Below are positions 25,006 through 30,483 of a stretch of 64,000 nt of DNA, in pieces. The notes beneath the pieces are model-generated. The model saw only the letters and a program-made list of their open reading frames with translations. It did not search any database and was not told where the DNA came from. This DNA comes from Myxococcus hansupus (lineage in GTDB: Bacteria; Myxococcota; Myxococcia; Myxococcales; Myxococcaceae): the NCBI RefSeq assembly GCF_000280925.3, contig NZ_CP012109.1:1054001-1118000 (forward strand), read 5' to 3'. Numbering within the stretch: the first letter of the stretch is position 1; each line of letters opens with the position of its first letter. Both the position numbers and the translations under genes were made by a program.

Positions 25006-26925
25006 TCAGGCTTCCTGGGCGTCGGGCCACTCCCACGCGGAGCGGTAGCCGCCGTGCTCCTGCGTGCCTTCGACGAAGCGAGCGTAGAAGGCGTGTCCGC
25101 TGAGCGTGGCGGAGTCGCCCACGACGAAGAGGTGACGGCGGGCGCGGGTGAGGGCCACGTTCATGCGGCGCAAATCGTTGAGGAAGCCGAGCTGCCCCTC
25201 GCCGTTGGAGCGCGTGAGGGAGACGATGATGGCGTCCTTCTCCCGGCCCTGGAATGCGTCGACGGTGTCGACCTCCACGTCGGGGCTGAGCGCCTCGATG
25301 CGCTCGCGCAGCCGGTGGGCCTGGGCGCTGTAGGGCGTAATCACCGCCAGCTCCCGGGGCGACAGGCCCGCGGCGAGCAGCGCGCGCACGCGGGCCTCCA
25401 CCAGCCCGGCCTCGCCAGGGTTGAAGAGGCTTCGCGTGGTGGGCTCGACTTCCTCCTCGAAGCCCTTGCCCGCGGTGTCGAGGAAGAGCACGGGGGGCGC
25501 GTCCACGTCCGCGCCAGGCGTGAGGACCTCCGCCAGCGCCCGGTCCGCCACGGAGGGGTGGGCGCGCAGCTCGCCGGCGTACATCTCCCGCGAGGGGAAC
25601 GCCATGATGCGCGCGTTCATCCGGTACTGCTCGCGCAGCATGCGTTTGACGCCCTCTCCGTGGTCCTTGAGCAGGCGCTCGAAGAGGCTCACGCCCAGGC
25701 CCGCCTTCGCGGCCTCCTGTGACAGCACGGTGGGCGGGAGCTGCTGCGGGTCTCCGGCGAGGATGACGCGAGGGGCGCGCAGGAAGCCGAGCAGCGCCAG
25801 GGGTTCGGTGGCCTGGGTGGCCTCGTCGAGCAGCGCCAGGTCGAACTTCTCGCCGGAGAGCACGCCGGAGTCGAGGCTGGAGAGCGTGACGCAGATGACG
25901 TCCGCGTTGGCCAGCACGGCCTTCACGGCCTTGCGCTCCAGGGCGCGGGCCTCGTCGAGCATGCCCTTGGCCTCGCTGGTGGAGGCGCGGGCGTTGGCGA
26001 AGCGCTCGCGGCTGCGGCCCTGGTTGCGCTGGCGTCGCGCGTAGCCCAGCAGGGAGTAGGCCTCGTCGAAGAGCTCTCTCGAGACGACGCGGTCGGGGTG
26101 GGACTCCACGACGATGTCCAGGGTGTGCTCCTGGAGGCGCGCGGCCACGCGTGCGGGGTGGCCCACGCGGACGGCGCGCAGGCCCTTGTCCAGGCACAGG
26201 TCCAGCAGGTGGTCCACGGCGGCGTTGCTGGCGGCGGTGCACAGCAGGCGTTGGCCGTCCGCCACGGCCTGTGCGGCGATTTCAGCCAGCACCGTGGACT
26301 TGCCGGTGCCCGGGGGGCCGTGGACCAGGAAGAAGTCCTCTGAGGCCAGGGCGCGGGCGGTGGCGTCCTGCTGCTCGGGGTTGAGGGGGCGGGTGGGCTC
26401 GAACTCACGGGGCTTGTCGAAGCGGGGCGGCTCGTTGCCCAGGAGGACTTCGCGCTTGTGCCGCTCGGCGCCCTTGTCCAGGGCCTTGATGCGCTGGAGC
26501 CCGGCGCGCAGGCGGTCATAGGTGACGTCGTTGGGGACGACGTCCAGGCGCAGGAGGCCCTCGTGGACGTAGGGCGGCGGGGAGCGGTCGAAGGCGAGCT
26601 GGATGCGCGTGGCGGTGGCGCGGGAGATGAGCGCGCGGGCCGGCTCCTTCACCTCGGCGCGGCGGGGCAGTACCGCCACCAGGTCGCCGTTGTGCAGGCG
26701 GGTGGGGAGGGGGCGCCGGTCCACGCGGCCCAGCGTGACGAGGAAGCGGCCGCCCAGGCCGACCTCTTCTTCGATGGACTCGAGGTCCAGGACGGACAGG
26801 CCTTGTTCCTCGCGCTCGTGCAGGGTGAGGCTCTGGGCGAGCGCGGCCAGGCGGGCCTTCTCGGCCTCGCGTTCCTGGGCGAGGAGGGAGCCGAGCTGGT
26901 CGAAGAACGAGACGTCACGTGCCAT
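25006..26925 (-). CDS. Superfamily 1B DNA/RNA helicase, IGHMBP2/Upf1-like
   Basis: 639 residues. An N-terminal beta-barrel-like region is followed by all SF1 motifs: Walker A GPPGTGKS, motif Ia TAASNAAVD, motif II DEATQ, motif III GDPQQLPPT, motif IV REQYRMN, motif V VDAFQGREKD and motif VI NVALTRAR. DEATQ and the GDPQQLPP box are typical of the Upf1/IGHMBP2 branch, which unwinds 5'-3' on DNA or RNA. No nuclease domain is fused to it. It is divergent from the GyrB-like gene with 92 bp between starts, so the two may share regulation. Confidence 0.92.
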   Translation of the reverse strand: MARDVSFFDQLGSLLAQEREAEKARLAALAQSLTLHEREEQGLSVLDLESIEEEVGLGGRFLVTLGRVDRRPLPTRLHNGDLVAVLPRRAEVKEPARALISRATATRIQLAFDRSPPPYVHEGLLRLDVVPNDVTYDRLRAGLQRIKALDKGAERHKREVLLGNEPPRFDKPREFEPTRPLNPEQQDATARALASEDFFLVHGPPGTGKSTVLAEIAAQAVADGQRLLCTAASNAAVDHLLDLCLDKGLRAVRVGHPARVAARLQEHTLDIVVESHPDRVVSRELFDEAYSLLGYARRQRNQGRSRERFANARASTSEAKGMLDEARALERKAVKAVLANADVICVTLSSLDSGVLSGEKFDLALLDEATQATEPLALLGFLRAPRVILAGDPQQLPPTVLSQEAAKAGLGVSLFERLLKDHGEGVKRMLREQYRMNARIMAFPSREMYAGELRAHPSVADRALAEVLTPGADVDAPPVLFLDTAGKGFEEEVEPTTRSLFNPGEAGLVEARVRALLAAGLSPRELAVITPYSAQAHRLRERIEALSPDVEVDTVDAFQGREKDAIIVSLTRSNGEGQLGFLNDLRRMNVALTRARRHLFVVGDSATLSGHAFYARFVEGTQEHGGYRSAWEWPDAQEA

Positions 26926-27017
26926 GGGCACGTCATGCCACCGCGTCGGAGCCAGGGCCAGTGTGTCCGTGTCCCGTTGTCGTGGGGCGGAAACGGGGCC
27001 AGGGATAGAGTTCCGGG

Positions 27018-28103
27018 ATGGAAAAGCTGAAGGACCATGTCGAGTCCATGCGCAAACGTCCCGGGATGTACTGCGGAGATGTTGGCGAGTATGGGCTGCA
27101 CCACCTCGTCTACTTCCTGTTGGAGGTCGTCTACGAAGAAGGCCGACGCGGCGACTGCCGCGACGCGGTGGTGGAATTGGGCGGGGATGGTTCCGTCGCG
27201 CTTTTCTCCACCGGTAGCATCGTCCCCGCGGAGCGCCTGGTCGATGTGGCGCTGGGCGCGGACTTCTTGAACGAGCCGCCGATTGATGCCTGGAGATGGG
27301 GCAGCATGCTGCCCGTGTCCCTGGGCTTGTCTTCACGCTACCAGGTGGACGTCTGGGCGCAGGGGCGTCAGTGGCGCTTGCTGGGAGCGCATGGGCGCCC
27401 CGTGGGCGCGGTGTCGGAGGTGACGCCACTGGAGCCCATGCCGGTCTCCGCGGCCCAGGGCATCCGCGTCCACTTCGTTCCAGACGCCACCATCTTCGAG
27501 GTGCTCGCCTTCGACAGCGCCCGTCTTTCCCGGCGCTGTAACGAGCTGGCTGCGCTCGCGCCTGGGCTGCGCGTGACTTACGTGGACCTTCAGCAGGGCT
27601 CGCGCACGCCGTGGCACCTGCCGGGGGGCGTGGCGCAGTGGGCCCACGTCCTCACGGAGGCGCGTGGGCGCCTCCACCCGGAGCCGATTGCCTTCGACTT
27701 CGCGTGGGAGGGGCTGCGCATCCAGTGTGCATTGCAGTGGAGCGAGGACGCGGACCTCACGTTGCTGTCGTTCGCCAACACCGTGCGCACCGTGCGGCAT
27801 GGCGCACACGTGGATGGCCTCATCCTGGCGCTGAGAGGGGCGCTGGCGAAGCTCGCGGGGACGCTCCGGCGAGAGTTCCCCTGGTCGGGCGTGTCTCAGG
27901 GGTTGACGGCCATCATCGCGGTGAGCGGCCCCCCGGGGGAAATGAAGTTCGCGGGCCCCACGAAGGAACTGCTGGCCATCGTTGGGTTGGAGGAGTCCGT
28001 TCGCAGGCAGCTCAAGCTCCGTCTCGTCGAACAGCTTCGGGGCCACCCCGTGACGCCGAAGCTCCTGGCGCGCCGTCAGGCGGCCTCGCGGTCGCGGCCC
28101 TGA
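27018..28103 (+). CDS. Stand-alone GyrB/ParE-like ATPase-transducer protein with degenerate ATP site
   Basis: 361 residues that follow the N-terminal half of DNA gyrase B from end to end: RKRPGMYCGDVGEYGLHHLVY (11-32), IRVHFVPDATIFE (149-161), the transducer strand IQCALQW (235-241), then GLTAIIAVSGPPGEMKFAGPTK (295-316) and LRGHPVTPKLL. The TOPRIM and C-terminal parts are absent. By alignment from memory, the catalytic Glu42 becomes Phe33, Asn46 becomes Val37, Asp73 becomes Thr65 and the Gly-rich lid is gone. The lysine of the QTK loop survives (PTK, Lys316). ATP hydrolysis is therefore unlikely. It could be a gyrase regulator or a scaffold. No known named family comes to mind. Confidence 0.8.
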   Translation: MEKLKDHVESMRKRPGMYCGDVGEYGLHHLVYFLLEVVYEEGRRGDCRDAVVELGGDGSVALFSTGSIVPAERLVDVALGADFLNEPPIDAWRWGSMLPVSLGLSSRYQVDVWAQGRQWRLLGAHGRPVGAVSEVTPLEPMPVSAAQGIRVHFVPDATIFEVLAFDSARLSRRCNELAALAPGLRVTYVDLQQGSRTPWHLPGGVAQWAHVLTEARGRLHPEPIAFDFAWEGLRIQCALQWSEDADLTLLSFANTVRTVRHGAHVDGLILALRGALAKLAGTLRREFPWSGVSQGLTAIIAVSGPPGEMKFAGPTKELLAIVGLEESVRRQLKLRLVEQLRGHPVTPKLLARRQAASRSRP

Positions 28104-28109
28104 AAAGCA

Positions 28110-28146
28110 CCGGGCCGGCGTCCCCGCGAAGGGTGCACCGGCCCGG
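28110..28146. terminator. Hairpin between convergent genes
   Basis: A perfect 9-bp inverted repeat CCGGGCCGG (28110-28118) / CCGGCCCGG (28138-28146) with a 19-base loop lies between the stops of the GyrB-like gene (28103) and the protease (28171). It is placed to end transcription from both sides. There is no T-run. Confidence 0.5.
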
Positions 28147-28170: not shown

Positions 28171-30483
28171 CTACGGGACGATGCGGCCGCCGCTCACCAC
28201 CAGGGCGTAGTTGGCGTCCGTCACGCGCGTCGTCAGCACGGTGTCCTGGACGATCTGGTCACCAATCACCTCCACCGTCCACGTGCCGGCGGCGGGGTTG
28301 GCGAGGAACACGTTCTCCACCGTGTCCACCGTGTTCGACACGCCACCCGGCGTGGAGACGTTGCTCGCCGTCAGGCCGTTGTTGCCCCAGTAGACGACGC
28401 CGGTGGGCGAGGTCACTCGCAGGGACAGGTCGTTGATGCGGGCCTGGGCCGCGCCCACCGTGCCCGCGGGGTCCGTGTACACCATGGTGACGTTCAGCTC
28501 CGTCTCACCCCGGGCCACGTTGACGGTGTACGTGTTCGTGGAGAGCGGCAGCAGGACGTCCGTCTCGTTGATGACGCTCGTCACGGCGGCGCGCTCATAG
28601 AGCCGCTTGACGTCCGCGGTGCCCCAGCCCTGCCGCGCGCGCGTCAGGTCGCCGTTGGTGCCGCCCGCCGTCCAGTTGTAGCGGTGCGCCATGTTGATCA
28701 TCAGTGCCTTCGCGGTGGCCATCTTGGGACGGCTGGCGAAGACGTCCGCGCCACCGCCGAAGCCCGCCCAGACGCCCTCGTGCCACATCTGGAACAGCAG
28801 GCCGAAGTGCCCCGCCGTCATCGGCGTGGCCGCGCTGGTGCCGCTGAAGTTGGTGTAGGCCGTGTTGGACGAGTTCGACGTGGAGCGGATGGCGTCGTAG
28901 TAATACGACAGGTCCGGCTTGAGGCGGCCATCCGCCGCGGGGCCCACGCTGGCGCCGCCGTTCCACCGGTCATCCCCGCGGTTGGCGTTGTTGTAGTGGT
29001 ACATGCCGCCCACCGACACGATGTTCTTCGCCCAGGCCTGGGGCCGTGAGTTCTGGCTGCCCGCGTTGCTCTGCGACTGGGTGCTGAGGATGGGGTGCTT
29101 GAAGAGGTAGTCGTCCACCTCGGCGGAGATGGTGGTGTACGTGGTCCCCAGCGTGCTGCCCACGCTGGAGGTCTGGAACACGGCGCGGTACGGCCCCGCC
29201 GGGTCGGTGAGCTCGCGGTTGATGTCGTAGCGCGACTTGGTGCCGCCGAACTGGGTGGACTCGTTGTAGCGGTAGAAGATGCCCTGGCCGGAGGGAATCA
29301 GGCCGCGCGAGTCCGCGTCCACGCCGCGGGCGAAGTTGATGCTGTAGCACGCGCTGCCGTGGAAGCTGCCCGTGGCGCTCGTGCTGTGGATGATGGGCGG
29401 CGTCGCCCACTCCTGGTGCGTGGTGCGCAGCTCGGTGTCGAAAATCTCGCCGCGGACGCCCTGGCCGGAGAAGCCCTCCACGGTCTCCAGGAACGTGGCG
29501 CCGCCCACCTCGCGGACGTTGTTGTTGTCGGTTTCACCCGGCCCACCCCACCGGTCGACGAACTGCACGGCATTGGAGCGCAGCACCCGCTCCAACTGGG
29601 CTTGCGTGAGCGTGGCCTCCACGCGCAGTCCACCCTGCTCGATGAGCTCCACCGTGCCCCCGAGCGCGCGGACCAGCGCCGCGACCTCGCCCTGGCGCGC
29701 CGGGCCGCGCTCGCCCACCATGATGGAGTAGCGCTGCGACTCCAGCCGGAGCGAGCGCCCCTGGAGCGCCTCGCGCAGCACGCTCTCCGTGCGGTACTCC
29801 GGATGGTAGGCGCCCACCCAGCGGACGTAGGGAAGCCCCGCGACGCGCTTGTGCGTGTCGGGCTTCATCTCCACGAGGAAGGTGTGGTCGGTGAGGAAGC
29901 GCAGCACCTTGCCGCCCGCGGCCTCGATGGCTTCACGGAACTCCGGCAGCGGCGTGGCGCGGAACTGCACCAGGTGCAGGGTGTTGTCCGCATCCGCGGC
30001 GAGCAGGCCCGCGACCAGCGGCTGCGCCCCATTGAGCGGGTCGAAGCGCGCGTGCTCCAGCCGGACCAGGTACTCGGTCGGCTGCACGCGCCCCAGCAGC
30101 GCCGAGCCACCCTGGCTGTAGGCGAAATACTCCTGGCGCCTGCCGTCGGCCGTCTCCTCCTGCCACGTGTGGAGCTGGACCGCCGCGCGCGGCACGTCGA
30201 GCGTCCGCAGGGCATGGATGGGCTGCTGCGTCCGATGGAAGATGTGTCCGGAGCCGGTGGCGAGCGCGAAGGCACCGCTCGCGGCGCGGTCGATGCCCGT
30301 GGCGAGGCGCGCCTTCTTCACCTCCACGTCGGTGAGAACCTTTGCGGGGCCGAGCGCCTCGGTTCCCCGGACGACGCCGGGCCGCGCGTCCGGTGTGTTC
30401 ACTGCGAGCGCCGTGACCGGCGTGGACAAGCCCCAACCGAGGGCGAGGAGGGACAGCGGGGACAACGAGGACGGCATACGCAT
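28171..30483 (-). CDS. Secreted subtilisin-family (S8) serine protease
   Basis: 770 residues with a signal peptide (SSLSPLSLLALGWGLSTPVTALA). A long N-terminal region, probably the prodomain, precedes the catalytic domain. The triad is recognisable: Asp in VRGEIFDTELRTTHQEW, His in GSFHGSACYSINFARG and Ser in NFSGTSAATPMTAG. The C-terminal ~130 residues form a beta-sandwich resembling the P/PPC-type domains of secreted subtilases (YTVNVARGETELNVTMVYTD, WTVEVIGD). It is most likely exported for extracellular protein digestion, consistent with a predatory lifestyle. ATG 30483 has AGGAG 8 bases ahead. Confidence 0.92.
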   Translation of the reverse strand: MRMPSSLSPLSLLALGWGLSTPVTALAVNTPDARPGVVRGTEALGPAKVLTDVEVKKARLATGIDRAASGAFALATGSGHIFHRTQQPIHALRTLDVPRAAVQLHTWQEETADGRRQEYFAYSQGGSALLGRVQPTEYLVRLEHARFDPLNGAQPLVAGLLAADADNTLHLVQFRATPLPEFREAIEAAGGKVLRFLTDHTFLVEMKPDTHKRVAGLPYVRWVGAYHPEYRTESVLREALQGRSLRLESQRYSIMVGERGPARQGEVAALVRALGGTVELIEQGGLRVEATLTQAQLERVLRSNAVQFVDRWGGPGETDNNNVREVGGATFLETVEGFSGQGVRGEIFDTELRTTHQEWATPPIIHSTSATGSFHGSACYSINFARGVDADSRGLIPSGQGIFYRYNESTQFGGTKSRYDINRELTDPAGPYRAVFQTSSVGSTLGTTYTTISAEVDDYLFKHPILSTQSQSNAGSQNSRPQAWAKNIVSVGGMYHYNNANRGDDRWNGGASVGPAADGRLKPDLSYYYDAIRSTSNSSNTAYTNFSGTSAATPMTAGHFGLLFQMWHEGVWAGFGGGADVFASRPKMATAKALMINMAHRYNWTAGGTNGDLTRARQGWGTADVKRLYERAAVTSVINETDVLLPLSTNTYTVNVARGETELNVTMVYTDPAGTVGAAQARINDLSLRVTSPTGVVYWGNNGLTASNVSTPGGVSNTVDTVENVFLANPAAGTWTVEVIGDQIVQDTVLTTRVTDANYALVVSGGRIVP

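Follow-up and report, generated by a model that had tools for sequence, protein, structure and literature searches.

A stand-alone, catalytically dead copy of the GyrB ATPase-transducer head in Myxococcus and its possible role as a protein-binding mimic

The window analysed here, a stretch of 64,000 nucleotides from the 9.49-Mb, single-contig genome of Myxococcus hansupus, carries a gene whose product we confirm to be a copy of the GyrB ATPase-transducer head that stands alone and is catalytically dead (pseudo-GyrB). Our preferred reading, held tentatively at a probability of roughly 0.35, is that the product is a non-enzymatic, protein-binding mimic of GyrB or ParE that evolves like an immunity or defence gene, a decoy role being suggested. 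The parts of the gene are as follows.

27018..28103, + strand: stand-alone pseudo-GyrB (GHKL and transducer domains), 361 residues and a stop codon; from the ORF (ATG to stop), profiles, alignment and model
27018..27626, + strand: GHKL (ATPase-fold) domain, residues 1-203; from the alignment to GyrB and the AF2 model
27087..27146, + strand: N-box helix, residues 24-43, with Glu42 replaced by Phe33 and Asn46 by Val37; from the alignment, helical in the model
27213..27302, + strand: shortened ATP-lid region, residues 66-95; from the alignment, with pLDDT 58 for residues 81-90
27627..28067, + strand: transducer domain, residues 204-350 (Pfam DNA_gyraseB)
27948..27974, + strand: relic of the QTK loop, FAGPTKELL, with Lys316; from the alignment

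Residues 7-353 align to E. coli GyrB over nearly the full length of the protein, and profiles and model agree with the preliminary description, which had placed the 361-residue ORF correctly and matched it to the N-terminal half of GyrB. TIGR01059 was matched at 7.6e-42 with 143.6 bits (cut-off 882.4) in two stretches, the better one covering residues 103-351, and Pfam DNA_gyraseB with 48.9 bits (cut-off 27) over residues 204-350. By these scores the protein belongs to the GyrB/ParE family but falls well short of a complete subunit. The reading frame ends where the transducer does, so that TOPRIM, as the preliminary description had said, and the GyrA-binding tail are both absent. At the other end, 13 residues precede RPGMY, and the open frame (364 codons) permits about 3 more. 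At other places in the genome, this domain is found in two longer frames (839 and 647 codons), which by length and motifs encode its GyrB and ParE; the window protein is 20-38% identical to its own GyrB, depending on the region. Among the 50 genes called in the window, the pseudo-GyrB gene ranks fifth from the bottom in codon fit and sixth from the bottom in GC3.

An AlphaFold2 model built from a 17-row alignment reached a mean pLDDT of 91.3 and has the GHKL-transducer fold of GyrB, as do its structural matches. The best of these was 3CWV (TM 0.91, 74% identity), with a Z score of 45.7 and an rmsd of 1.8 over 348 aligned residues of 3cwv_A (VIA); the matches ranked 2-21 are all GyrB/ParE heads (Z 34.2-36.8). 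3CWV, released in the PDB on 2008-05-06 as 'DNA gyrase, B subunit, truncated' of Myxococcus xanthus, is the crystal structure of an ortholog 73-74% identical to the window protein (rmsd to the model 1.8-1.9 Å). Its chain is matched by the G135 allele over residues 2-360, the window carrying a different allele. The two proteins share family membership, a stand-alone head of ~360 residues and the loss of the ATP residues; 3CWV was deposited as a gyrase subunit. The 43-kDa N-terminal fragment of E. coli GyrB (1EI1) has the GHKL and transducer domains in the same order and fold (1ei1_A: Z 36.4, rmsd 4.2, 350 aligned residues; VIA). In contrast to this fragment, the window protein is the product of a natural stand-alone gene, is only 24% identical, has a shorter N-terminus and has lost Glu42, Asn46, Asp73, the lid and the Gln of QTK. 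With a crystal structure deposited for the 74%-identical ortholog, an alignment error is ruled out.

The ATP site was compared in an alignment of 16 clade I and 15 clade II pseudo-GyrBs with 44 GyrB/ParE rows, some of them identical and a single one from ParE. The 31 pseudo-GyrB rows omit the near-duplicate alleles G124 and G135 and the broken copies (G137, the second G127 copy, the fourth G118 copy, G065 and G093), and residue counts are quoted only for columns whose letters sum fully. Residue numbers, including those of the N-box Glu42 and Asn46, and residue roles are those of E. coli GyrB, with papers as the source for Tyr109 and for glycine pairs 101/102 and 113/114. Asp73 is the adenine Asp of the site. 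Glu42, Asn46 and the lid residue Tyr109 were each found in 44/44 GyrB/ParE rows and in 0/31 pseudo-GyrBs. Asp73 and Gly119 (44/44 each) were each retained in 1/31 pseudo-GyrBs, and Thr165 (44/44) in 4/31. The three QTK letters, each present in 44/44 GyrB/ParE rows, were recovered to different extents (Gln 1/31, Thr 22/31, Lys 14/31), and Gly75 was retained in 22/31.

At the positions where a functional GyrB has Glu42, Asn46 and Asp73, the window protein has Phe33, Val37 and Ser64. The first two replacements had been recognised in the preliminary description, which had also reported the Asp as lost; that loss holds, but the residue it named, Thr65, belongs to the next column. The glycine lid is changed as described: it is shortened, and Lys103, Tyr109 and most of GGLHGVG are gone. 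The QTK-loop lysine is indeed kept in the window protein (Lys316), but not throughout the family, where 14 of 31 relatives have it. Between the window allele and that of G134, the lid region is 50% identical and the other three regions are 74-80% identical. Loss of the ATP residues is a family trait, and the ATP site of the window protein is dead; ATP cannot bind there in the ordinary manner.

A maximum-likelihood tree of 78 rows (73 different) unites the stand-alone proteins in a single clade (100/100). This clade splits into arm I (16 rows) and arm II (15 rows), each supported at 100/99. Up to 10 candidates were scored per genome, and absences and per-genus counts refer to the matches listed. 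On this basis, 12 of 27 genomes of the genus carry arm I, nine arm II, none both and six neither. Outside the genus, the matches listed comprise arm I copies in G062, G073, G074, G099 and G111 and an arm II copy in G094, with fragments in G065 and G093, all in the same family; none fell beyond this one myxobacterial family. A pattern scan across the genomes of 84,980 species returned six loci, all in Myxococcus, Pyxidicoccus, Citreicoccus or Archangium; it used one short peptide pattern and so misses distant members. Gene calls and start codons of relatives come from our own codon-usage script, and the 31 aligned copies have open frames of 317-392 residues. A model of a clade II protein, weaker than that of the window protein (pLDDT 76.5), shows the same fold (Z 32.3 to 1kij_A, rmsd 3.3, 339 aligned residues). 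As to origin, the best tree groups the pseudo-GyrBs with GyrB against ParE, but the alternative of pseudo-GyrBs with ParE is not rejected (p-AU 0.64). Two copies in the G122 genome carry ParE-like motifs, an N-terminal arm TYTADDIVEL in G122b (L041:8674-9852) and YIGGTDALG in G122c (L041:9986-11110), hinting at possible ParE ancestry or recombination.

The surroundings of the gene in the window comprise the following features.

25006..26925, - strand: SF1 helicase (SMUBP-2/HCS1 type), a conserved neighbour outside the system; from homologue comparison
26926..27017, no strand: 92-bp intergenic gap separating the gene from the divergent helicase, a presumed promoter region; from the sequence
26999..28093, no strand: segment missing from the empty site of congener G125; from blastn blocks
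28110..28146, no strand: GC-rich inverted repeat CCGGGCCGG/CCGGCCCGG between the convergent genes; found by eye
28171..30477, - strand: S8 peptidase, the usual convergent neighbour, outside the system; from homologue comparison

The helicase site either holds the gene, as a one-gene cassette, or lacks it. In congener G125, with a 98%-identical helicase, the empty site is clean: ~36 bp stand in place of the 1095 bp of positions 26999-28093. The inverted repeat CCGGGCCGG/CCGGCCCGG, retained at this empty site, is probably a shared terminator, as read by eye. A pseudo-GyrB lies at the helicase in 10 of 27 genomes of the genus (G000, G116, G121, G122, G124 and G134-G138; the contigs of G116, G124 and G137 carry only part of the helicase, and G138 has two extra genes between helicase and pseudo-GyrB). 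It is missing there in 16 others, of which G126 and G127 also lack the peptidase; G133 had no helicase match at the cut-off. The helicase itself was found in 25/27 genomes at E <= 1e-100, 16 of them without a pseudo-GyrB beside it. It is therefore ruled out as a functional partner and gives no clue to function, and the suggestion in the preliminary description that the divergent SF1 helicase points to DNA metabolism falls away. Clade II has a recurrent site of its own, upstream of one family of hydrophobic-protein genes, shared by G115, G117-G119, G120, G123, G128, G130 and G131.

The alleles at the helicase site can be far more diverged than their surroundings. The DNA of the window allele is 55-88% identical to that of three others over the gene and the stretch upstream, and 82-99% identical over the flanks, indicating that the alleles are older than the flanks or moved independently of them. 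No such drop was seen in the three closest pairs (G134/G135, G136/G124 and G134/G137). Between G134 and G136 the gene is a mosaic: identity is 61-80% over its first third and 84-94% over the remainder. Substitution rates were obtained by the Nei-Gojobori method in five genomes, giving pseudo-GyrB values for 6 of 10 pairs. Against four other alleles, the window allele had a dN of 0.17-0.21, a dS of 0.51-0.75 and an omega of 0.24-0.34, compared with a dS of 0.20-0.50 and an omega of 0.11-0.32 for the flanking families against the window. The excess in dS over the flanks is modest in pairs with the window allele, and one flanking gene of 120 residues, with a dS of 0.499 against the window, comes near the pseudo-GyrB minimum of 0.514. 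The clearest pair is G134 and G136, with a dS of 0.454 in the gene and 0.055-0.135 in 12 flanking families. At the protein level, pseudo-GyrBs of eight arm I genomes (28 pairs) are 44-75% identical, as against 90-98% for the GyrB head.

Omega alone is unremarkable, because the neighbouring S8 peptidase has values of 0.25-0.32 against the window. Nevertheless, the omega of 0.24-0.34 of the window allele indicates that the gene is maintained, and, with values of 0.2-0.34, pseudo-GyrB alleles are under purifying selection. Copies are also gained and lost. Tandem arrays comprise three copies in G122 (58-64% identical) and four in G118, one of them truncated and the other three 42-47% identical. 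Tandem pairs occur in G117 (46% identical) and G128 (69%), and in the tree the tandem copies of G117 and G118 persist as orthologous pairs. The G137 allele (M. xanthus AM003, L040:9634-10443) has an in-frame deletion of ~80 residues, about 61-140, that spans the lid region; the tail of the second G127 copy is altered, and G118, G065 and G093 hold fragments. This pattern is one of birth-and-death evolution combined with purifying selection, from which we infer, by analogy, a likeness to conflict, immunity and kin-recognition genes; horizontal exchange without conflict could be an alternative source of the high divergence.

The genes next to pseudo-GyrBs were compared across loci. No constant partner gene was seen in the loci compared, and no toxin or phage gene consistently adjoining pseudo-GyrB was recognised there, many neighbours having no known family. 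PADLOC profiles gave no match at 0.01 for one protein per arm. At two loci pseudo-GyrB adjoins a defence-type gene: in G138 this is a HEC-01A-like ATPase, and in G118 (L132) a SoFic-type Fic lying upstream of the array. The G138 insert, at L039:10107-11572, consists of the HEC-01A-like AAA ATPase and a 199-residue protein between helicase and pseudo-GyrB, and the helicase site of this genome may be a small defence hot spot. In G118, four clade II genes, the last truncated, directly follow the Fic gene at L132:4595-10236. As the Fic gene was found at a single locus, it was rejected as a general partner. Clade II copies of G117, G118 and G131 (loci L166, L132 and L169) have a trypsin-like protease gene upstream, G127 has a DUF4261 gene nearby and G130 a SUKH-like fragment below the Pfam cut-off; the remaining loci have unrelated neighbours or ones without a family. 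In the Citreicoccus genome G073, a T6SS-type cluster with TIGR02270, DUF2169, 3-oxoacyl-ACP-synthase-like and Tox-PAAR genes (L045:3394-10681) is enclosed by two IS5 copies in inverted orientation and resembles a transposed effector cassette. Being IS5-flanked and missing beside the gene in the sister genome G074, the T6SS/PAAR cluster was discarded as a partner.

We propose that pseudo-GyrB would act through protein binding, and not through ATP or DNA, by mimicking the GyrB/ParE head. In its likeliest form, such mimicry may serve immunity or defence: the protein would be a decoy engaging toxins or phage proteins that target the ATPase domain of GyrB or ParE; with its lid gone, the decoy itself should be immune to toxins that cut or modify the lid. 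Weapons of this kind are known. According to PMC12136450, the interbacterial protease Cpe1, whose homologs occur in Myxococcota and further phyla, cleaves the G101-G102 bond of GyrB and the G97-G98 bond of ParE. Dead Cpe1 is bound by the isolated ATPase domain of ParE with a Kd of 343 nM, and the Cpe1 immunity protein competes with the substrate for the binding site. The same lid is the target of the Fic protein VbhT, which AMPylates Tyr109 of GyrB (PMC10886550). Since pseudo-GyrBs have lost the lid, a lidless head could compete for lid-directed toxins of this kind without being spent. The immunity protein Cpi1 shares with this proposal only the idea of competing with the toxin's GyrB/ParE substrate; in PMC12136450, putative Cpi1-type proteins measure 79-239 residues and mostly follow the toxin gene, whereas pseudo-GyrB has no recognised toxin next door.

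The GyrBs of these bacteria are changed in the same region. LHAGSK replaces LHAGGK in 18/18 GyrBs from genera g1, g3, g6 and g7 and in 8/20 further GyrBs, and G111 has LHAGAK (the table of GyrB motifs has one row per genome and kind and leaves out L144, a pseudo-GyrB, and L179, a ParE without the motif). The change falls on the double glycine at which Cpe1 cuts E. coli GyrB (PMC12136450). In a tree of 33 GyrBs, the LHAGSK/LHAGAK proteins form one clade (100/100), which holds every pseudo-GyrB genus as well as g2, g6 and g9, where no pseudo-GyrB was found. Other Myxococcota GyrBs keep GG (15/15 and 10/11, the exception being LNAGLK in G108), as does the ParE of the window genome. The Gly-to-Ser change and the pseudo-GyrB clade each arose once on one lineage, so their coincidence is a lead and not a test; g2, g6 and g9 have the GyrB change with no pseudo-GyrB found. 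The fuller scenario of target-mimic immunity, in which ATP-dead heads are kept, shuffled and duplicated as traps for toxins or phage proteins, with the lid removed from the decoy and the cut site of the real GyrB changed from GG to GS, we consider unlikely.

A decoy role is supported by retention of the fold while Glu42 and Asn46 were lost in 31/31 proteins, by maintenance of the gene, by the raised dS of its alleles, and by the clean empty site, the tandem arrays, the defence-type neighbours at two loci and the loss of the lid. Against it stand the 20-38% identity to the protein's own GyrB, by which a GyrB-like docking patch is at best putative, the lack of a consistently adjoining toxin or phage gene in the loci compared, and the absence of a PADLOC match at 0.01. 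The same low identity would suit a GHKL-transducer module repurposed for a partner or ligand that has nothing to do with gyrase; kin recognition, signalling and predation are examples of such a role, which the diversity of the module would then reflect. This is possible, if short of probable. The fold is retained amid fast change, Trp113, Trp119, Arg173, Glu176, Trp230, Arg234 and Cys237 are conserved at at least 90% (17 rows, alignment A1), and protease genes recur nearby, the trypsin-like gene upstream of clade II in G117, G118 and G131 and the S8 peptidase beside clade I at most helicase loci, either of which may be chance. However, separate clade I loci have no partner gene in common, and nothing indicates a particular ligand. 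Rebuilding of the GHKL pocket into a new sensor of nucleotides or small molecules is very improbable: the pocket has changed in a clade-specific manner, Trp occupying the column of GyrB G114 in 8/16 and that of H116 in 13/16 clade I rows, but these columns differ in clade II and the lid region is the least conserved of the four regions. A sponge for aminocoumarins, in whose binding Asp73 and Arg136 of GyrB have a role, was set aside because the counterparts of both residues are gone in the window protein.

The preliminary description had offered control of supercoiling by dimerising with, or mimicking, GyrB or ParE, or else a new role; of these, mimicry is our leading reading. A regulator of gyrase or topoisomerase IV that lowers supercoiling, either as a heterodimer with GyrB or ParE or by blocking T-segment passage, has on its side the GyrB head fold, the QTK-loop lysine in 14/31 proteins and the ParE-like N-terminal arm of G122b. 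We nonetheless regard it as distinctly unlikely, and the earlier suggestion of dimers with GyrB is not supported. The N-terminus of the window protein is short (the starts of other copies being those chosen by the script), the ATP site, TOPRIM and tail are all missing, and the close congener G125 does without the gene at the helicase site. Moreover, 44-75% identity alongside a GyrB head conserved at 90-98% would be odd for an obligate GyrB partner. GyrB heterodimerisation or supercoiling control is thus less likely than a protein-binding mimic with conflict-type evolution. That the gene is a decaying relic, or a functionless selfish single-gene passenger, we likewise consider very improbable. 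The broken copies (the internal in-frame deletion of G137, the tail of the second G127 copy and the fragments in G118, G065 and G093) and the weak codon fit, fifth from the bottom of 50, would agree with decay, but omega lies well under 1 at a dS of 0.5-0.75, frames of 317-392 residues are open in the 31 aligned copies, and G117 and G118 have kept their tandem copies as orthologous pairs.

The PDB has contained the fold since 2008. In the open-licence literature, we found no paper on 3CWV or on a truncated GyrB of Myxococcus, and no account of the function or evolution of the pseudo-GyrB family. 3CWV now represents an entire family of GyrB pseudo-enzymes whose population genetics are those of conflict genes. 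If the mimic is a decoy, it would be a natural instance of target mimicry that shields an essential enzyme of relevance to drugs, and would suggest the existence of gyrase-directed weapons in myxobacteria; otherwise it would still be a GHKL-transducer scaffold released from ATP and DNA.

A phage or plasmid origin of the window protein was rejected. Matches in 123 plasmid and 51 phage records, of which 20 each were listed, were below 60% identity, and one viral locus reached 27%. The eight plasmid matches inspected comprised five annotated gyrB genes and three stand-alone heads from Streptomyces. The latter, of 387-396 residues and annotated 'ATP-binding protein' or 'DNA gyrase subunit B', likewise consist of the GyrB head alone and have lost the N-box Asn in 3/3 and the Glu in 1/3. 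They differ from the myxobacterial proteins in keeping Asp73 (3/3) and much of the lid, and lie beside actinomycete GyrB in the tree, consistent with a separate origin. Their genes are located on linear plasmids, at L113:4252-5427, L114:4941-6131 and L115:3947-5110.
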